45,646 bases of DNA from positions 1-45,646 of the forward strand of contig JARGGB010000020.1 of assembly GCA_029210815.1 (NCBI GenBank), given 5' to 3'. Below are positions 8,116-18,883 of the stretch, piece by piece. The stretch comes from Candidatus Brevefilum sp. (GTDB taxonomy: Bacteria > Chloroflexota > Anaerolineae > Anaerolineales > Anaerolineaceae). The position numbers were made by a program, and so were the translations under genes. Below the pieces are notes generated by a model. That model searched no databases and was not told the origin of the DNA. It saw nothing but the letters and a program-made list of their open reading frames with translations. Position 1 is the first letter of the stretch. The number at the start of each line of letters is the position of its first letter.

Positions 8116-8673
8116 ATGAACACAACACTGCCCGAAACCGCCCTGATCCTTGTTGCTATCCTTCCCAGCCAGCGTGATTTTGATATCGCGCGCCTGTTTG
8201 GATGGTATCGCATCCCGCTCAAAAGCGCGCCAAAGGTGATCTCTGTTGATTATTTAGCCTTTTACCAGACGAAAGCCTTTGGGGAAGCTGAGCGGTGGCA
8301 AATCTCATATGTAGCTGAAATTCTGGGCCACGAGTTAACCCATCGGCGTGATTTGATCAGGGATGAACCGAACCACCCCCGCGCTCAGGAGGAGTATTTC
8401 AAGATCCAGGTCGGACCAATACAAAAGCTCGAAAATCCAATTCCCGCAGGGGACTGGAAACGCATTACCTTTTTTTATACTACAGGGGAGCAATTCCAAA
8501 CTGCAAGGACCATCAACGACCTGGTCATCAAAGCGCAAGATGAACGGGAAATTTTATGGCATACCCTCAGGGAGCGGGCGCTTAAGGCAAATGAATATCA
8601 GGCTGCGAACCTGCCGAAATCGGTCATCGATCCCGCTATTTTGGCTTTGTTGGGGGAATTTGGGGCTTTTTAA
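8116..8673 (+). CDS. uncharacterised 185-aa protein
   Basis: I do not recognise the family. The protein looks real: it has balanced composition, an ATG with AGGGG a few nt upstream, and an inverted repeat just downstream. It is soluble, with no signal peptide or membrane segment. Notable elements are LPSQRDFDIARLFGWYRIP (about 16-34), VDYLAFYQTKAFGE (about 44-57) and HELTHRRDLIRDEPNHPRAQEEYFK around 73-97. HELTH superficially resembles a zinc-peptidase HExxH, but the following segment lacks a clear third ligand, so I do not call it a protease. A compact cytoplasmic nucleic-acid or nuclease-related fold is possible but unsupported. It is flanked by a repeat-rich gap upstream and by the convergent cold-shock gene downstream. 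Confidence 0.7.
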   Translation: MNTTLPETALILVAILPSQRDFDIARLFGWYRIPLKSAPKVISVDYLAFYQTKAFGEAERWQISYVAEILGHELTHRRDLIRDEPNHPRAQEEYFKIQVGPIQKLENPIPAGDWKRITFFYTTGEQFQTARTINDLVIKAQDEREILWHTLRERALKANEYQAANLPKSVIDPAILALLGEFGAF

Positions 8674-9166: not shown

Positions 9167-10424
9167 TTACTCCGTTGTCGTAAATTTATGAGCCTCTTTT
9201 AGCGCTTCTAATTCTTCCGGCAAAATCAAAGTCTCCTCTGCATAACGATAGGCAAGATTTGCATGAGCAACAGCTTCTTTATTCATTTCTTTGTTGTTAT
9301 AAGATACCAGTGTTCTGAAAGCTTTTTGAAGCCATAATGCCACCTCAATTGTGCCAGCGCCATCCCTGGAGATAGGGTTGAAGGCATCATCGAGCATATC
9401 CTTTAATGAAATTTGTGTGACAAAAACCCTGTCGGCAACAAGATTGTCTTGTTTTTCGTTGATTTCCTAGTCAACCCATATTGAAAAAAGGCGAATAAAG
9501 GATTCAATAATGTCGATGGCTGTCCCCGGGTCATTTACTGCTGAAGAAAGCGCCCGGCTGCCGATTTCAGAAAGGATGATCAATCCAAAGCGCGGATCTT
9601 CATCAAAAACCCGGTCATCATCAATTGTGAATGCGTTAAGGATGTCTACGACAGCCAATTTTATATCATTATTGTTTGATTTTTCTATGTAAGCGATTGG
9701 TTGGTCAGGCGTAAGAAACTTGCCGGGTAAAGAAATGATATTAATCTTGAGATCGAAATCCTCAGCGATTTTTTGTAAGGCAGGGACATCAATATATTGT
9801 AAATAACCGATGGCTTTAGCATAGACAGGTTCCCCGGTTTGTAGATCACTTGCTTTCATTGCCCCCATTGTGGGGTGCTGTTTGCGCCAGATTAAAGATT
9901 CTTTTGTCGCCGCTTCTGCTTTGTCGATGATATTGCCAAGCCTTCCTAAACGAGCAATGCGATCCAGCTATCGGATGAAATTCAATATAATGACAGCAAA
10001 AAAAGGATAGAGATGATAAAGAGTAGGAAACGCCCTGCGGTCCATAATATCCATTTTCTAACGCCACAATTGCCACAATGCTAAAAATAAATGCGCCGAT
10101 AAAAGAAGAAAGGGTGTTTTGTGAAATGTCATCGGCAATCACCAGCGGGAAAGAGCGTGGTGTTGCCGTGTTGCTTGCGGAAGAATAGGCGATAAGCATT
10201 GATCCTACAGCAAATGTTGCAACCCCCAGCATGCTTCCGGATGTAACCCCGAGCAAAACATCGAGGGATTTTACAGAGACCTCTGGCACAACTTCAAGGA
10301 ATTGGATCTGATCTGCCAGCTAGGCAACGATGGCAATGATTATTGAGAAAATGCAGATTACCAGGGGCTTGACCCACAAATGCTCTTTAATTCGGTTATA
10401 GAAAAATCGAATGCGATCTCGCAT
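9167..10424 (-). pseudogene. decayed DUF2254 family membrane protein gene
   Basis: Reading the minus strand from the ATG at 10424 (preceded by AAAGGAT) gives a protein of about 418 codons typical of DUF2254. It has an N-terminal helix region starting MRDRIRFFYNRIKEHLW, then the characteristic GSMLGVATFAVGSMLIAYSS and SQNTLSSFIGAFIFS segments. A later part carries DRIARLGRLGN and DPGTAIDIIESF. The frame is broken at five places. In-frame TAG codons are at 10320-10322, about 9968-9970 (probably replacing the Trp of an R-W-L-D motif) and 9467-9469. One-nucleotide deletions are apparent near 10042 (after GPQG) and in the T7 run near 9998. The intact pieces are 9846-10289, 9467-9868 and 9167-9397. 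No TAA or TGA interrupts the reconstructed frame. The original function is unknown; the family is a predicted polytopic membrane protein. Confidence 0.85.
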
Positions 10425-12043: not shown

Positions 12044-13660
12044 ATGATTCTTCTCATTCCTATAGGACTGCTCCTAATTGCGTCCCTGGCAATATTTATT
12101 TTATTCAACCTTCGGCCAAAATATGGGACAAGCTGGCTGATCGCTGCCATCGCGTCCATACTTGCGTGGCTGACAATTTTCTACCTGCGATTACGCCTAC
12201 CAACGACATTGGAAATCCTATCCTGGGGAGGAAGCACAAGCCAATTATGGGGTGATTTTTCGCTGCTATTAGATTACGACTCATGGCCGTATTCATTGGC
12301 ATTAATCACCATCACCCTGGCTGTTATTTTCACGGATGCTGCCAGAACTCGATACGACAGTACGCCTAAATCCTGGTCTGCCAGCCTGGCAATAGCAGCT
12401 TTAGGTTTGGTTGCAATTCAGTCGGGCACAAGTATGATGCTGATCATCACATGGGCAATTGTTGATATCCTGGAACTCATTTATTTACTGGGATTGGCAG
12501 AGGATACGCAATTCAATCATCGAATTGTCATCGCTTTCGGTGTGCGAATTATTTCAATCATTATGCTCAGCCTTGCCACGGCAATAAATTGGCAGCTTGT
12601 TGGAACAACGGATTTGACAAGCATCGCACCGGGAGCCGGCTTCCTGTTTTTGCTGGGAGCTGGATTTCGCCTGGGTGTGTTCCCGCTCAATTTACCGATG
12701 TTACAGGAACCTTCGCTGCGACGTGGCGCCGGGAATATTCTCAGGATGGCACCTATTGCAGCCAGCCTTGGTTTGCTGGCGCGATTGCCTGAAGGGATTA
12801 TTACCCCCAATTTGAGCGGCTTGCTGCCTCTATTTCATGCTTTGCTCGCTATTGCTGCCCTCTATGGTGCATTTCGGTGGGTGACATCACAAAGTGCTGT
12901 AGCCGGACGACCTTACTGGATCATTACATGGGCTGCCCTCGCGGCTGAATCTGTGATTAACGGTGCGGCAGGTGAAAGCCTGGCATGGGGTGTGGCTTTG
13001 CTCTTGTCGGGGAGTTTGTTATTCCTTTATTATCCGCGCATTCAACGAATGAATTTTTTGCTTCACTTTGGACTAATTGGGATGATTGGCTTGCCGTACA
13101 CGCCCGCTGCCAGCGGGTGGTTTGGATTAACAGCAAATGGGTTAACTTTTTGGACATTTTTATATCTACTCGCGCATGCAATGATGGTCATGGGTTATCT
13201 AAAGTTCACTCTAGAGCCAGGTGGTGAGACCAGTGTTTTAGAGTCATGGGCAAGGTTGGTATATCCTCTTGGATTGATTATCATCATTCAAGCCATTATC
13301 ACCTCAGGATTAATTGGCTGGCCAGGATCATTAATTTTAGGTGTATGGTGGCTTCCTATCCTCAGTATATTAATTATATTTGGCGCTTTCTATCTGATTC
13401 GGACAGCCGGGTTCGACACAGCAAACATAAAGCTACCCAGCAGCAGCGGTTTCACAAAAGTATTAAATTGGATCCTTCCAAGGTTAGAGCCAGTTTTCCG
13501 CCTGGAATGGGTTTACAGGCTGATATGGCGAATTGTTGCCGCCCTCAGCCGAATTTTGAAAATTTTCTCCGTAATAATCGAGGGCGAAGGGGGCATCCTC
13601 TGGACAATTTTATTGCTTGTATTATTGATTTCTCTACTATCTAGCGCGGTGGGGAACTAA
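12044..13660 (+). CDS. NuoL/MrpA-like proton-conducting membrane subunit, divergent
   Basis: A 538-residue inner-membrane protein made of about 14-16 hydrophobic helices, with the size and layout of the antiporter-like subunits of complex I and Mrp. Two landmarks fit. An acidic helix, WAIVDILELIYLLGL (about 137-151), is at the place of the conserved helix-5 glutamate. FRLGVFPLNLPM (about 207-218) corresponds to the KxPxxPFHxWLP motif of helix 7, with Arg instead of the Lys and PLN instead of PFH. There is no clear Shine-Dalgarno site before the ATG; coupling to hydA 16 nt upstream is likely. Its stop overlaps the next start (TAATG). The C-terminal part beyond residue 430 has a long amphipathic segment resembling the lateral helix region of NuoL. 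Homology is inferred from pattern; overall similarity is low. Confidence 0.75.
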   Translation: MILLIPIGLLLIASLAIFILFNLRPKYGTSWLIAAIASILAWLTIFYLRLRLPTTLEILSWGGSTSQLWGDFSLLLDYDSWPYSLALITITLAVIFTDAARTRYDSTPKSWSASLAIAALGLVAIQSGTSMMLIITWAIVDILELIYLLGLAEDTQFNHRIVIAFGVRIISIIMLSLATAINWQLVGTTDLTSIAPGAGFLFLLGAGFRLGVFPLNLPMLQEPSLRRGAGNILRMAPIAASLGLLARLPEGIITPNLSGLLPLFHALLAIAALYGAFRWVTSQSAVAGRPYWIITWAALAAESVINGAAGESLAWGVALLLSGSLLFLYYPRIQRMNFLLHFGLIGMIGLPYTPAASGWFGLTANGLTFWTFLYLLAHAMMVMGYLKFTLEPGGETSVLESWARLVYPLGLIIIIQAIITSGLIGWPGSLILGVWWLPILSILIIFGAFYLIRTAGFDTANIKLPSSSGFTKVLNWILPRLEPVFRLEWVYRLIWRIVAALSRILKIFSVIIEGEGGILWTILLLVLLISLLSSAVGN

Positions 13661-14268
13661 TGGCATCTCTATCAACACTTGCTTTTTTGATGATCGTCAT
13701 CACTGCCATGGTCATCCTTATCTTTCGAGATTGGCGCATCAACACTGCTGCTCTGACACTGCAGTATTTAGCAGTTTTTTACCTTGTGACACTCTCCTGG
13801 CCAATCGGGCTGGCGATTGTCAAATTGATTGTTGGCTGGATGGCAACTGCAGCCATTGGGCTGACCTGCCTTCGTCAGATGGATGATAGTCCCCCGACAG
13901 AATCGACATCCAGCTTATTCTTCCGTGCCCTGGCAGGTTTGATGATTATCCTGGTGATGTTTGTTATATCTTCTACGCTCCAGGATACGGTTTTCCCGAA
14001 TGTGGATTTGGTCATTATCAGGAGTGGTTTAATGCTGGTCGGGATGGCTTTGATGCAGCTTGGAACCAATGCATCGCCCTACCTGATTATCATGAGCTTA
14101 TTGAGCTTTATGGCAGGATTTGAATTAATTCATGCAGCTTTGGAGCGTTCTACTTTGTTGACCGGCTTAATGGCAAGCGTTAACCTTGGGCTTGCCCTTG
14201 TAGGCGTTTATTTCATCATGAAATCCAATGATAGGGATGAACTCCAAAAAGAAGAGGAAGGCAAATGA
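13660..14268 (+). CDS. NuoK/MrpC/HyfE-like membrane subunit
   Basis: A 202-residue membrane protein with about six or seven hydrophobic helices. The C-terminal part, from SLLSFMAGFELIHAALE to the end of the last helix (about 146-192), resembles NuoK, MrpC and HyfE. In particular GFELI matches the NuoK GIELM element, with its membrane glutamate at E155. The N-terminal helices (residues 1-70) are longer than in NuoK and fit HyfE better. The ATG overlaps the preceding stop by one base, and the gene's own stop overlaps the next start (ATGA), so translation of all three membrane genes is probably coupled. It would form the small central subunit between the two large antiporter-like proteins. Confidence 0.65.
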   Translation: MASLSTLAFLMIVITAMVILIFRDWRINTAALTLQYLAVFYLVTLSWPIGLAIVKLIVGWMATAAIGLTCLRQMDDSPPTESTSSLFFRALAGLMIILVMFVISSTLQDTVFPNVDLVIIRSGLMLVGMALMQLGTNASPYLIIMSLLSFMAGFELIHAALERSTLLTGLMASVNLGLALVGVYFIMKSNDRDELQKEEEGK

Positions 14269-15677
14269 CTCTAAGCACACCAATTCTATGGGTCATCCTG
14301 CCTTTGTTTATCAGCTTGATTACCGGTATTTTTTACCGCCGTCGAATATTGGGCATGATATTAACCTGTACAACCGGCTTTGGCTTGGGTGCTTTAGCTG
14401 CATTTTTCCCGGAAGATCTGGTAATCAGCATTGGGCCGCTGACACTTAATTTTGTCGAAAACCTGAGCATCCTTGGCAGGCAGATAAACATAAACTATCA
14501 AATCTTACCCTTTGTTGCATTTATTTATTTTTCAACCGGTCTATGGGCTGTAGGGAGTATACGGCCAAGTGTGCCAGAATCATTCCGCCCGACCAGCCTG
14601 GTTATAACAGCGCTGCTGACTGCAGCATTGGGCGTAGAGCCTTTCCTTTACGCGGCTTTGTTTATTGAAGGTGCAATCCTTTTCTCAGTTCCCATGCTTT
14701 CGCCACTGCTGTCGAAAACCCATCCCGGAATTCTACGCTTTATATGCCTTCAAACACTGGCATTACCTTTTATCCTTCTTGCAGGCTGGTTGTTAAGCGG
14801 CGTTGAAACACTGCCGCCAGACAGCCCATTAATTGTGCAAACGATGATCATATTAGGGCTGGGTATTGGGTTGTGGTTGGCTGTTTTTCCCTTCCACAGC
14901 TGGGTCCCAATGGTCAGTGAAAAAGCCCATCCGCTGCCTGTCAGTTTTGTGTTATTTATTTTCCCGACCGTCATCACATTATTCAGCCTTAATTTCCTGG
15001 ATCGTTATACATTTCTGCGAACATCCCAGGGCTTGTATCAATCACTGAGGTCTATTGGTACTTTAATGATCGTTTTAGGCGGCTTGTGGACAGCTTATCA
15101 AGATGATATTAAACGTGCCTTTGGGTTTTCAGCCTTATCTGAAACAGGTTTTTTGCTGCTGGCAATTGGGTTGGCTGACCAGGGAGGTCTGTCTTTGCTT
15201 CTAATGTTATTCCCTGCCCATGCAGTCAGTTTCTGGTTGTGGGGATTCACGCTGAGTTTGATCGAAACTCGGGCAGATTCCCGCTCAATTGAGGTTTTGC
15301 ATGGTTTTGCTCAAAGATATCCAATTATTTCAAGCGGTTTACTGGTTGCTCAATTGAGCATCGCGGGTTTGCCGCTGTTTGCCACATTCCCAGTAAAAAT
15401 TGCTTTGTTTTCAGAAGCTTTTGCTGTCAGGTCTGGTTTAGGTGTCTGGATATTTGTCGGCAGTCTTGGCCTTTTCTTTTTTAGCGTTCGGCTTTTAATT
15501 AATCTTGTAACACCCAATACAGAACAGGCTATCACAAGTTGGGTGCTGACAGAAAAGGCAAATGTTTATTTACCGATTCTTCTAACAATTCTGGCAGTGA
15601 TCATTATGGGATTGTTTCCCAATGCAATTTTGACAAATATCACCACTATCTTGACCGCCTTTGGACAACTGCAGTAA
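14265..15677 (+). CDS. NuoN/NuoM/MrpD-like proton-conducting membrane subunit
   Basis: A 470-residue protein with about 14 helices, the size of NuoN/NuoM. Family landmarks: ALFIEGAILFS (about 126-136) carries the helix-5 glutamate. VFPFHSWVP (about 206-214) matches the PFHxWLP motif. QDDIKRAFGFSALSETGFLLLAIG (about 280-303) matches the KRLLAYSSVSHxG element with its lysine. The usual helix-7 lysine four residues before FPFH is a Trp here, a change that would affect proton transfer if the subunit works as in complex I. The start overlaps the upstream stop by 4 nt. The gene ends the hydA-trio cluster. No intrinsic terminator is evident before the next promoter at about 15741. Confidence 0.82.
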   Translation: MTLSTPILWVILPLFISLITGIFYRRRILGMILTCTTGFGLGALAAFFPEDLVISIGPLTLNFVENLSILGRQININYQILPFVAFIYFSTGLWAVGSIRPSVPESFRPTSLVITALLTAALGVEPFLYAALFIEGAILFSVPMLSPLLSKTHPGILRFICLQTLALPFILLAGWLLSGVETLPPDSPLIVQTMIILGLGIGLWLAVFPFHSWVPMVSEKAHPLPVSFVLFIFPTVITLFSLNFLDRYTFLRTSQGLYQSLRSIGTLMIVLGGLWTAYQDDIKRAFGFSALSETGFLLLAIGLADQGGLSLLLMLFPAHAVSFWLWGFTLSLIETRADSRSIEVLHGFAQRYPIISSGLLVAQLSIAGLPLFATFPVKIALFSEAFAVRSGLGVWIFVGSLGLFFFSVRLLINLVTPNTEQAITSWVLTEKANVYLPILLTILAVIIMGLFPNAILTNITTILTAFGQLQ

Positions 15678-15806: not shown

Positions 15807-16988
15807 ATGGACAACTCACTCAACGAAGAACAATTACAAAAACGTGTATCCTGGTTGGATAATGAACTTCGGAATGATAAAACCGCTATTGCATCTCTGC
15901 AAAGTAAGCTCGAAAATCTTGACACTGAGAATTCCGCTTTACGATTGCGTATTGCAGATCTTGAAAGCGAAATTACCCGGATAAATACATTGATGGCACG
16001 CTTGGAGCAATTTGAATTGGATATTCATGAGCTTGAGGCAAATACAAATCGCCAATTTGATGATATCCGAAGTTCGGTTCAGGAAAAGAATATCCAATCA
16101 GAAAGGAATGAACGAGAAATTGAAGACCTCAAACCACAAGTAAGCGATCTCCGCAAAAAGATCGATGGGATCGATGAAAACAGTGAAGCTATTGATATGC
16201 GCAAAGACGAAGATATTCGTTTAACCAGGTTGATTGAAGAATTGAAGACCGAGATCAATGAAATTGGGCGCTTTGACGAAGAGTATAAACGGTCGCTGCG
16301 CATGATTGAAGACAACCGGCGTCAGGATGTTAAGCGTTTGACTGATATGCAGGGCGAAATTGCCGCTATGAGGAAGCGGCAGGATGAAATTCGTGGCAAA
16401 CAAGACCTGGTCGGCGACAATTTGCGAAAAGTTGAAACGCGGATTAAAGATCTTTTGGATGCAGAATCAGAACGGCGCGAATCACAAACTGCTTTTACTG
16501 AAAAGGTGAATATTGCCCAGGTTGAGCAGGAACGCGTTCTAAAGCAATGGGCTGAGCGTTTTGAGAAAATTGAGCAGATCACGGATGGCATTGACGAGCA
16601 ATTGATTGGCCTTCAGGAAATCAATCGATCTGTTAAGAAGTCACAAAGCGGATTGGATGAGGTTACCCAAAGATTTGAACGCCGGATAAATGAGGTCACT
16701 GAAGTGCAAAGACTTAATGAGGATCGATTCCGACAGGAATGGACAACTTTTAAATCGGATGACCAGAAACGCTGGTCAAATTATGTTTTATCGCAGGAAG
16801 AGCAGCATCGAGAAATGAGCCGGGGACTTGAGAGCCTTGGGGAGCAAATCACCAGCATGGACGAATTGTTCGAGGAGATGCAGGATAAACTTGAACAATT
16901 GGGCGGTGAGGAGCTTAAACGGATGCAATCGCTCCTGAAAACAATCCGGGAATCTATTGATGCCTACACTTATATTTTTAAAGGATAA
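15807..16988 (+). CDS. long coiled-coil protein, function unknown
   Basis: A 393-residue soluble protein that is almost entirely heptad-patterned and rich in Glu, Arg, Lys, Asp and Gln. There is no signal peptide, membrane segment or ATPase motif, so it is not an SMC protein itself. Four or five coiled-coil stretches are separated by short breaks (for example around residues 120-130 and 255-265). The C-terminus SLLKTIRESIDAYTYIFKG is less charged and may be a docking tail. AGGAA lies 6 nt before the ATG. The stop is 17 nt from selB, so the two are almost certainly co-transcribed. A scaffold or cytoskeletal role is possible, but nothing in the sequence decides it. Confidence 0.75.
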   Translation: MDNSLNEEQLQKRVSWLDNELRNDKTAIASLQSKLENLDTENSALRLRIADLESEITRINTLMARLEQFELDIHELEANTNRQFDDIRSSVQEKNIQSERNEREIEDLKPQVSDLRKKIDGIDENSEAIDMRKDEDIRLTRLIEELKTEINEIGRFDEEYKRSLRMIEDNRRQDVKRLTDMQGEIAAMRKRQDEIRGKQDLVGDNLRKVETRIKDLLDAESERRESQTAFTEKVNIAQVEQERVLKQWAERFEKIEQITDGIDEQLIGLQEINRSVKKSQSGLDEVTQRFERRINEVTEVQRLNEDRFRQEWTTFKSDDQKRWSNYVLSQEEQHREMSRGLESLGEQITSMDELFEEMQDKLEQLGGEELKRMQSLLKTIRESIDAYTYIFKG

Positions 16989-17005: not shown

Positions 17006-18883
17006 ATGCAAGTTATTGGCACCGCAGGTCACGTTGATCATGGTAAATCGACCCTGATTAACCGGCTGACCGGCATAAATCCTGACCGATTAAAACAAGA
17101 ACAAGATCGGGAAATGAGCATCGAACTGGGCTTTGCCTGGTTCAGCCTTCCAAATGGCGAAGAAATCGGCATTATCGATGTGCCCGGTCATCGTGATTTT
17201 ATTGAAAATATGCTGTCTGGAATAGGGGGAATTGACGCAGCCCTGTTCGTGGTGGCTGCGGATGAAGGTGTTATGCCGCAAACACGTGAACACCTTGCGA
17301 TCCTGGATTTACTGCAAATCCCTGCAGGGGTTGTTGCCCTGACGAAAATTGATCTTATAAAGGAACAGGAATGGCTTGACCTGGTGGAAGCTGATCTGAG
17401 TGAAACCCTTGCGGGTACGGTGCTTGAAAATGCGCCAATTGTCAGGGTTAGTGCCCGTTCTGGTGAGGGCATTGATGCGCTGGTGCTTGCCATCCAGGAA
17501 GTGCTTGGGAAGCATCCCCATCGACCAGATCTGGGTCGTCCTCGTCTGCCGGTTGACCGCGTTTTTACCTTGTCCGGGTTTGGCACAATCGTAACAGGGA
17601 CATTGATGGATGGGACTTTAGCGGTTGGTGATTCGGTAGAAGTTTTGCCTGCAGGGATTGAAGGCAGAATTCGTGGCCTGCAAACCCACAAACAAGCAGA
17701 AGAAAAAGCCCTACCAGGCGGCCGAACAGCCGTCAACATTTCTGGCATCAGTCATGATCAGATCGAACGCGGGAATACCCTTGTCCATCCTGGAACAATT
17801 AAACCTACAAAGATGATAGATGTCTGGTGCACCCTTTTACCTGATGTCAGGGAATCTCTGAAACATAATGCGGAAATCAAATTATTTATTGGTGCTGCAG
17901 AGGTGATGGCAAGGGTTCGTCTGCTGGGGGTTGATAAATTAGCACCAGGGAAAGACGCTTTTCTTCAACTGATGCTGCAAAATCCGATTGTTGCACTTCG
18001 GCAAGATCGTTTTATCATACGCAGGCCATCACCACCTGCGACGATTGGCGGGGGCCAGGTTGTAGACCCTCACCCGGCAAAACGCCATAAGCGGTATAAC
18101 ACCGCCCGTTTGGAGGAATTGGAGCATCTTCTTGTTGGGACACCAGAAGACATCTTGCTGCAAACCGCCCGAAAGCTAGGCGCTTCCTCACTTGATGAAT
18201 TGATCAAGGCATCCGGTCTTGAAAATGACCAGGCTTCTAAAGCTGGTGATAATTTGATAAGCCAGGGGTTGCTCCTTGAGCTGAAAAATAAACAAATTCT
18301 AATGGCAGCAGATCAGTTTAATCTCTTTAAAAAACGTTTGGCTGATTCACTCGATGCATTCCACCAACAAAACCCCCTGAAAACCGGCATGCCCCGAGAA
18401 CAATTAAAATCTCAGGTTGGCATTGGCTCGACATTGTTTGACGCCATTATCAAGCAGATGCATGATGCATTAATTCTCGAAGAGATTGGTGCAAAACTGC
18501 ATTTGGTTGGGCATGAGGTGCGTTTTTCAGAGGAACAACAGAAAATGATCACAACGCTCCTTGATCAATTTGACGCAGCGCCCTTTACACCTCCTTCCGT
18601 CAAACAAAGTGAGGAATTGATTGGTGAAGAACTTCTTGCTGCATTACTTGAAACAGGTCAATTGATGCGGCCGGGTGAAGATGTTTTACTGCAGCCAAAA
18701 AGATACGATGAAATGAAAGACGCTGTCATATCACATATTCAAGCTCATGGAATTATATCGCTGGCTGAATTGCGGGATATGTTTGACACCAGTCGAAAGT
18801 ATGCCGTGGCTGTTTTGGAACAACTCGACCAGAGTGGTGTCACTATTCGACAGGGGGATGTCAGAAAGCTGCGCCGCAAGTAA
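17006..18883 (+). CDS. selB: selenocysteine-specific elongation factor SelB
   Basis: A GTPase that brings selenocysteyl-tRNA to UGA codons followed by a SECIS element. G motifs are in order: GHVDHGKST (G1, residues 7-15), DVPGH (G3, about 57-61) and TKID (G4, about 112-115). Domains II and III (about 170-340) follow. The C-terminal half (about 370-625) has the length and helical pattern of the four winged-helix repeats that bind SECIS RNA. The 625 residues are normal for bacterial SelB and longer than EF-Tu (about 395). AAGGAT precedes the ATG. selA, selD and tRNA-Sec are not in this window, and I saw no gene with a convincing in-frame UGA here. Confidence 0.94.
   Translation: MQVIGTAGHVDHGKSTLINRLTGINPDRLKQEQDREMSIELGFAWFSLPNGEEIGIIDVPGHRDFIENMLSGIGGIDAALFVVAADEGVMPQTREHLAILDLLQIPAGVVALTKIDLIKEQEWLDLVEADLSETLAGTVLENAPIVRVSARSGEGIDALVLAIQEVLGKHPHRPDLGRPRLPVDRVFTLSGFGTIVTGTLMDGTLAVGDSVEVLPAGIEGRIRGLQTHKQAEEKALPGGRTAVNISGISHDQIERGNTLVHPGTIKPTKMIDVWCTLLPDVRESLKHNAEIKLFIGAAEVMARVRLLGVDKLAPGKDAFLQLMLQNPIVALRQDRFIIRRPSPPATIGGGQVVDPHPAKRHKRYNTARLEELEHLLVGTPEDILLQTARKLGASSLDELIKASGLENDQASKAGDNLISQGLLLELKNKQILMAADQFNLFKKRLADSLDAFHQQNPLKTGMPREQLKSQVGIGSTLFDAIIKQMHDALILEEIGAKLHLVGHEVRFSEEQQKMITTLLDQFDAAPFTPPSVKQSEELIGEELLAALLETGQLMRPGEDVLLQPKRYDEMKDAVISHIQAHGIISLAELRDMFDTSRKYAVAVLEQLDQSGVTIRQGDVRKLRRK

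Follow-up and report, generated by a model that had tools for sequence, protein, structure and literature searches.

The stretch of DNA analysed here (the window: 45,646 nucleotides of Candidatus Brevefilum sp., Anaerolineaceae, Anaerolineales, Chloroflexota; assembly GCA_029210815.1, contig JARGGB010000020.1, positions 1-45,646, forward strand) contains three coupled open reading frames (ORFs), referred to as A, B and C, which encode two large antiporter-like membrane proteins and, between them, a small helical protein (Table 1). The coupling had been proposed in an initial annotation made from the sequence alone, and is borne out by the ORF calls and by the junction sequences, TAATG between A and B and ATGA between B and C. 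Across 113 loci, B overlaps C in 109, and by exactly four bases in 88. Membership of the antiporter-like superfamily is established for C by a family profile (PF00361), and for A by its fold and by hhalign, A having no Pfam match. As some near-complete genomes that carry it show no recognisable electron-carrying partner, and the usual key lysines are replaced, the trio is probably an ion transporter of its own.

Table 1. Genes and residues of the trio and its downstream neighbours in the window (TM, transmembrane helix; aa, amino acids; fractions are counts over the aligned family unless stated otherwise).
Feature	Position	Strand	Description
Gene A	12044..13660	+	ORF, 538 aa; NuoL/MrpA-type antiporter-like subunit
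Gene B	13660..14268	+	ORF, 202 aa; 7 helices, no recognised family
Gene C	14265..15677	+	ORF, 470 aa; NuoN-type antiporter-like subunit without TM7 lysine
A codon 141	12464..12466	+	Asp in TM5; 128 Asp and 3 Glu of 132
A codon 209	12668..12670	+	Arg at end of TM7, canonical lysine column; 128/132
A codons 513-517	13580..13594	+	EGEGG motif before last TM
C codon 204	14874..14876	+	Trp, canonical TM7 lysine column; Lys in 0/129
C codon 378	15396..15398	+	Lys, canonical TM12 column; Arg/Lys in 105/129
Gene D	15807..16988	+	coiled-coil protein, 393 aa; usually next downstream, perhaps a soluble partner
SelB elongation factor gene	17006..18883	+	SelB winged-helix and beta-barrel domains; 71/80 named loci

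A scan of contigs identified 146 relatives of A, of which 80 were kept as named loci; these come from Chloroflexi/Chloroflexota, from Anaerolineae/Anaerolineales or from named members, including one Herpetosiphon sp. All 80 contain B, 79 contain C and the same number contain A, B and C together, with D present in 76. Among 71 genomes drawn evenly from the window's order (completeness at least 90), A was present in 61, of which 16 had already been sampled, and 34 of the other 45 provided a set of divergent loci, in which A, B and C occur together without exception, accompanied by D in 28 and by SelB in 24. Of the 114 loci picked on the basis of A, 113 have B and C next in line on the same strand, the exception (L152) being a contig end. 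In wider draws, A was found in 40 of 396 genomes of the class by single-sequence search and in 40 of 400 genomes of the phylum by profile search, the phylum-level matches including two canonical NuoL genes and two A-like genes with neither B nor C nearby (G010, locus L091, and G046, locus L092); in L091, the ORF after the A-like gene resembles a coiled-coil protein. Anaerolineales is thus the main home of the trio, relatives of which occur in a few further families of the class. For residue counts, short sequences and those identical over the last 150 residues were dropped, leaving 99 A, 97 B and 96 C proteins, to which the sequences from the 34 divergent loci were added to give final sets of 132 A, 131 B and 129 C; loci L090-L092 (G009, G010 and G046) were left out.

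The protein encoded by A gave no meaningful match in Pfam, NCBIfam or PHROGs, and its assignment comes from its predicted structure and from profile comparison. The AlphaFold model, built with 58 sequences, has a mean predicted local distance difference test score (pLDDT) of 88.6 and a predicted template modelling score of 0.88, and contains about 16 transmembrane helices, including a helix 7 (196-210) which ends at Arg209, a broken helix 12 (334-348 and 356-362), TM15 (436-454), a C-terminal lateral segment (469-513) and a last helix (515-537). In the model, this layout is that of NuoL with a short lateral part. The top Foldseek match of the model in the PDB was a 493-residue chain of an MrpA-MrpD model (E-value 7.8e-13, probability 1.00), with E. 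coli NuoL chains listed next, and VIA-align against the ND5 chain 7ar9_L aligned 482 residues with a Z score of 34.5 and a root-mean-square deviation of 3.6 Å. Comparison by hhalign of a 29-sequence A profile with 15 canonical L, M, N and Hyf subunits gave a probability of 98.3% and an E-value of 1.1e-14. The profile A1 also matched the NuoL genes of ordinary nuo clusters in G664 (1.3e-8) and G689 (2.9e-7), which a second A profile did not list. The predicted structure of A is that of a NuoL/MrpA-type antiporter fold, in keeping with the NuoL-like protein of roughly 14 to 16 helices that had been proposed for this gene. A match of A to cytochrome bo3 subunit 2 (E-value 0.0015) was rejected, since it covers only part of the protein and the structure points elsewhere. 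The EGEGG motif is well conserved, with its first Glu (E513) in 127 and its last Gly (G517) in 120 of the 132 proteins.

C matches PF00361 (Proton_antipo_M) over residues 190-399 with an E-value of 1.3e-25, and its best NCBIfam model is that of NuoN (TIGR01770), with 90.2 bits, far below the cut-off of 332.6. Comparison by hhalign of the C profile with the canonical subunits gave a probability of 99.7% and an E-value of 9.8e-26. In a midpoint-rooted tree of 27 proteins, in which MrpD was not sampled, ten C proteins form a single clade (bootstrap 100) beside NuoN-type proteins (bootstrap 70). The NuoN-like character ascribed to C in the initial annotation is thus upheld by the family profile, hhalign and tree placement.

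B, by contrast with the two large subunits, has no recognised family, as PF00420, hhalign, Foldseek and VIA give no clear relative. Its AlphaFold model consists of seven helices with a pLDDT of 94.4. No meaningful match was found in Pfam, NCBIfam or PHROGs; PF00420, which matches E. coli NuoK (4.8e-24) and HyfE (8e-18), matched neither the B protein of the window nor three others; hhalign gave 0.2% against NuoK, 0.2% against NuoJ and 0.5% against HyfE; and Foldseek listed no solved structure at an E-value of 1e-3 or below. The best VIA score was a Z of 7.7; unrelated helical chains ranked among the best matches, and no family stood out. B had been described as NuoK-like on account of a GFELI glutamate; the glutamate is real and conserved (E155, 122 of 131), and the link to NuoK finds no support in profile or fold. 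The assignment of B as a NuoK or NuoJ orthologue is therefore unsupported, the sole lead being a weak match (E-value 0.056) of its N-terminal half to MbhD of the Mbh hydrogenase, and a distant kinship may exist. Two further charges are strongly conserved, K55 (126 of 131) and E162 (127 of 131); in the model, K55 and E155 lie within predicted helices and E162 just past a helix end.

In canonical antiporter-like subunits, a Glu in TM5 pairs with a Lys in TM7, proton uptake is by a central Lys, and release is by a Lys or Glu in TM12. PMC9271201 describes proton transfer along three elements: a Lys paired with Glu or Asp, a Lys at the centre, and a Lys or Glu at the distal end. In an alignment with C, each of five canonical proteins has Glu at TM5 and Lys at TM7, and either Lys or Glu at TM12. 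The TM7 lysine column of A contains Arg almost throughout and Lys in none of the 132 proteins, the alignment columns being less sure in the divergent set (for instance three Gly and one His at this position). The corresponding column of C contains 109 Leu and 13 Trp among 129 proteins, and any Lys, Arg or His occurs at residues 200-208 in only three and at 231-242, the TM8 stretch, in four. The replacement of the helix-7 lysine by Arg in A and by Trp in C, as read by the initial annotation from the window, is hence confirmed (Arg209 and Trp204), and it extends to the families, as Arg throughout most A proteins and mostly as Leu in C. A residue acidic in 131 of 132 A proteins lies at position 141, one helical turn past the TM5 Glu column, and Arg234 in TM8 (114 of 132) precedes the canonical TM8 lysine column (238) by one turn. 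The TM12 column of A (Trp359 in the window), located by a residue count from a shared proline, as the profile alignment is gapped there, contains Trp in 89 of 132, Arg in four, and no Lys or Glu. Arg209 in A is combined with Arg or Lys at TM12 of C in 104 of the 127 loci having both proteins.

The neighbourhood of the trio was searched with 25 tblastn queries (Nuo and Hyf subunits and subunits of the window's own genome; E-value 1e-5) in 109 + 37 loci; nine contigs occur twice among the 109, two of the 37 carry A only, and the loci often stop at contig ends, with at most about 10 kilobases (kb) searched on each side. No relative of NuoH, NuoCD, NuoB, NuoI, NuoK or the Hyf catalytic subunits was found beside the trio, and none of HyfC, HyfG, HyfH or HyfI, each of which was matched in at least one control cluster. 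The same queries gave 15, 16 and 19 matches in three canonical clusters. Those for NuoJ, NuoF, NuoG, HyfA and HyfJ were silent even in the controls (E. coli NuoJ matched nothing in control clusters that hold a NuoJ), so that the absence of these five is not established, and NuoE was not among the queries. The sole extra matches were MrpA-like genes on the opposite strand, located about 4-5 kb upstream in L196, L197 and L199, which belong to one family; in the two of these genomes that were searched, an MrpE match lies about 10 kb from the trio.

Searches of whole genomes gave a similar picture. NuoH (PF00146) was found in none of five near-complete genomes of the window's family (G253, G320, G334, G357 and G387), and the 49-kDa subunit (PF00346) in none of three, G357 and G387 being outside that sample. 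The only PF00361 match in G253 (99% complete, one contig), G320, G334 and G387 is, by its coordinates, gene C of the trio, which is to be read as the only recognisable match, since PF00361 misses A everywhere and also misses C in G357, where it gave no match at all. MrpE (PF01899) was absent from all eight family genomes searched, that of the window included, MrpB, MrpC, MrpF and MrpG not having been searched. Two f141 genomes carry MrpE in a separate operon near the trio. G743 and G771, which have a separate Mrp-like operon, keep the trio, so that it is not simply a substitute for Mrp. The lack of complex I-type genes is not family-wide, since G202 and G271, also of the window's family, hold several PF00346, PF00146 and PF00361 matches, and 67 of the 71 order genomes hold a PF00346 protein somewhere. 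In the window's own genome, contig 42 (L035, 5016-13635) carries a group 4-like cluster with genes of the NuoH, I, D, C, B, A, N, M, L and K types (L, M and N assigned by PF00361, H and D by profile, the others read from sequence), so that membrane subunits of its own accompany this recognised arm. The L subunit of the cluster (556 aa) stands out in the tree as very divergent, and its large subunit has two CxxC motifs, as in [NiFe] hydrogenases.

These results argue for a stand-alone system, as no recognisable Nuo or Hyf redox subunit was found beside the trio, NuoH has no match in five genomes, and C is the only recognised Proton_antipo_M gene in four. A truncated nuo, hyf or mrp operon was rejected on the basis of the neighbourhood tblastn and the PF00346, PF00146 and MrpE searches. 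The stand-alone arrangement suggested by the initial annotation, together with its remark that no redox subunit adjoins the trio, therefore gains support well beyond the window, and the arrangement named in advance as its refutation, orthologues always within a full nuo, hyf or mrp operon, was not seen in the 109 + 37 loci.

Comparison with known systems places the trio beside several of them. Like complex I, it has in A a subunit with the NuoL fold, including TM15, the lateral segment and the last TM, and in C a subunit which groups with NuoN-type proteins; unlike complex I, it has no recognisable redox arm or NuoH, B is not recognisable as NuoK, the TM7 Lys is replaced in both A and C, and the TM12 Lys appears to be missing in A. 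The Mrp (cation-proton antiporter 3, CPA3) antiporters likewise lack a redox arm and have adjoining NuoL/MrpA-like and NuoN-like large subunits, but they comprise seven subunits, against three genes in the trio, with MrpE absent from the window's genome, and contain both LysTMH7 and LysTMH12 (PMC7419157), which neither A nor C keeps together. DabB of the DAB2 system (PMC13144422) resembles A in being NuoL-like yet outside complex I, and in its short lateral helix and altered ion pair, whereas the trio consists of two antiporter-like subunits and a 7-TM protein, and DabB2 keeps the TM7 Lys (Lys235). No DabA was noticed among the neighbours inspected, no DabA profile search having been made. The order of the trio, with a large, an approximately 200-residue and a large subunit, is that of HyfD-HyfE-HyfF in hydrogenase-4 (the formate hydrogenlyase, FHL, type), and B is close to HyfE in length (202 versus 216 residues); however, the PF00420 domain of HyfE is absent from B, hhalign relates the two at only the level given above, and HyfC, G, H and I are missing near the trio. 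The trio clearly belongs to the complex I/Mrp superfamily, yet departs from complex I, Mrp and hydrogenase-4 in the residue and subunit tests made for each.

We infer that A, B and C assemble into a single stand-alone membrane complex belonging to this superfamily, which would move ions without a redox arm by means of a relay shared between subunits; this proposal is given just under an even chance. A would supply the charges of the first half, with Asp141 (TM5), Arg209 (TM7) and Arg234 (TM8), having mostly Trp at TM12, and C would supply the second half, with Arg or Lys at TM12 and usually a Glu at TM5, having almost no basic residue around TM7 and TM8. B, whose conserved charges are Lys55 and Glu155 within helices and Glu162 where a helix ends, would bridge A and C, so that the putative relay crosses from the TM5-TM8 half of A through B to the TM12 half of C. 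Because Arg stays charged, Arg209 of A would act as a fixed electrostatic gate and not as a proton carrier. The complex may act as a cation/proton exchanger or as a conductor (Na+ or H+), powered by an existing ion gradient. In its favour, isolated antiporter modules of complex I conduct protons without the rest of the complex (PMC11496545). In the DAB2 system, DabB2 retains the cytoplasmic half-channel, and DabA, which helps to form the periplasmic half, is proposed to complete the path (PMC13144422). DAB2 is thus a natural precedent for a half-channel provided by another protein, which also lends support to the soluble-partner alternative considered below. The shared relay is preferred because the charged positions are strongly constrained across the order. 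Its most specific form, a self-contained minimal transporter with two half-channels divided between proteins (A holding the TM5-TM8 half on a fixed Arg, C the TM12 half, and B forming the bridge) and constituting a distinct branch beside Mrp and complex I, is considered unlikely.

Several observations weigh against the shared relay. PMC7419157 describes LysTMH7 and LysTMH12 as essential, and as absolutely conserved, in both Mrp and complex I, and in engineered modules replacement of the middle Lys or of the terminal Lys/Glu blocks conduction (PMC11496545); neither A, apparently without the terminal Lys/Glu, nor C, without the middle Lys, should therefore conduct alone by the known route. The TM5 Glu column of A itself (residue 138) is acidic in none of the 132 proteins, while in C the TM5 Glu135 is Glu in only 96 of 129 and the TM12 charge is likewise kept incompletely (Table 1). 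The TM12 column of A depends on the counting described above, and some Lys or Arg occurs within 355-363 in 27 of 132 proteins. To these are added the A-like genes of G010 and G046 without B or C beside them, the retention of the trio in genomes with a separate Mrp-like operon (G743 and G771), and the limited reach of PF00361 in the claim that C is the only match.

The charges that remain also bear on whether the trio transports ions at all. It might have lost ion transport and serve as a membrane scaffold, sensor or regulatory channel, its missing lysines reflecting the decay of a pump; this would account for the scarcity of basic residues around TM7 and TM8 of C, for the apparent lack of Lys at TM12 of A and for the absence of charge in the TM5 Glu column of A. 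If the channel were decaying, however, its constrained charges should not persist, and D141 and R209 of A are retained in 128 of 132 each, along with K55, E155 and E162 of B at the frequencies given above, which renders decay improbable. Nor do the subunits seem to belong to a complex I, group 4 hydrogenase or Mrp system encoded elsewhere, of which they would form the membrane arm. The group 4-like cluster on contig 42, the prevalence of PF00346 across the order and the several matches in G202 and G271 speak for such an arm, yet the contig 42 cluster encodes its own L, M, N, K and H subunits together with redox-type genes, five family members have no NuoH match, the three tested have none to PF00346, MrpE is absent from all eight, and no NuoH, NuoCD, NuoB, NuoI or Hyf catalytic subunit appears near the trio with queries that work in controls. 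This reading is already largely refuted and is regarded as very improbable.

A different proposal retains the ion flow and assigns it another role, with the trio acting as the membrane anchor or energiser of a soluble partner, as DabB does for DabA, so that ion flow would drive conformational or chemical work in that partner. The best candidate is D or an enzyme that escaped recognition. D stands beside the trio in 76 of the 80 named and 28 of the 34 divergent loci, and is kept in G253, where SelB is not adjacent; furthermore, A appears to show a loss of one half similar to that of DabB2 (PMC13144422). On the other hand, D is a coiled-coil protein in which no catalytic domain was recognised, and it is not adjacent in six of the 34 divergent loci (the contig ending soon after C in two of these, L188 and L203) or in L055 and L155. 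No other gene is consistently linked to the trio in the loci inspected, the genes inserted between C and D resembling glycosyltransferases. On balance, a soluble partner is thought somewhat unlikely. The suggestion of the initial annotation that the membrane module is recruited by a distant enzyme becomes unlikely for arms of the complex I or hydrogenase type, and may still apply to a soluble partner.

The debate on how complex I couples remote events to ion movement turns largely on which buried residues are indispensable. The trio is a natural three-protein relative which seems to work alone, keeping constrained charges while dropping or replacing residues that are described as absolutely conserved in other systems. 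Provided that it transports ions, it is a compact model for the requirements of the antiporter-like fold; otherwise, it reveals another use of that fold. Should the half-channels be divided as proposed, such transporters would be widespread in Anaerolineales and, in some species, would be the sole recognisable system of the superfamily in the cell. Literature searches by title and start of abstract, part of which were empty or off topic and which constitute weak evidence of novelty, returned no published description of the A-B-C trio, a predicted membrane complex widespread in this order.

Downstream of the trio, D is conserved at its start (EQ..KRL.WLD) and in a C-terminal stretch (ERRINE...MQRL.EDR.RQEW..FK.DDQKRW), and a Pfam search recognised no domain in it. 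The SelB gene which follows is probably a conserved neighbour and not part of the complex. A functional tie of the trio to selenocysteine was rejected, since G253 (L053) keeps A-B-C-D although SelB is missing beside the trio and no SelA match was found in its genome. Glycosyltransferase-like genes, read from sequence, occur beside C or between C and D in L183, L184, L188, L189, L198, L200 and L201. Upstream of the trio, counterparts of the gene at 8116-8673 (about 185 residues, no Pfam match) lie before A in 14 of 114 loci and directly abut the start of A in L196, L197 and L199.

In L211 (G334) and L215 (G320), the F-type ATP synthase operons start with two small genes, followed by those for subunits a, c and b. 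The ATP synthase c-subunits of G334, G320 and G387 (L213) show an E-T...Y pattern that resembles the Na+ motif. These features recall N-ATPases with Na+ ligands, and Na+ may be the coupling ion of the trio. A scan gave 16 promoter-like sites against a shuffle mean of 11.9, and 15 terminator-like sites against 7.2, which were not used as evidence. On the minus strand, at 9467-10289, two adjacent overlapping ORFs (133 and 147 aa) look like a membrane-protein gene split by a frameshift.

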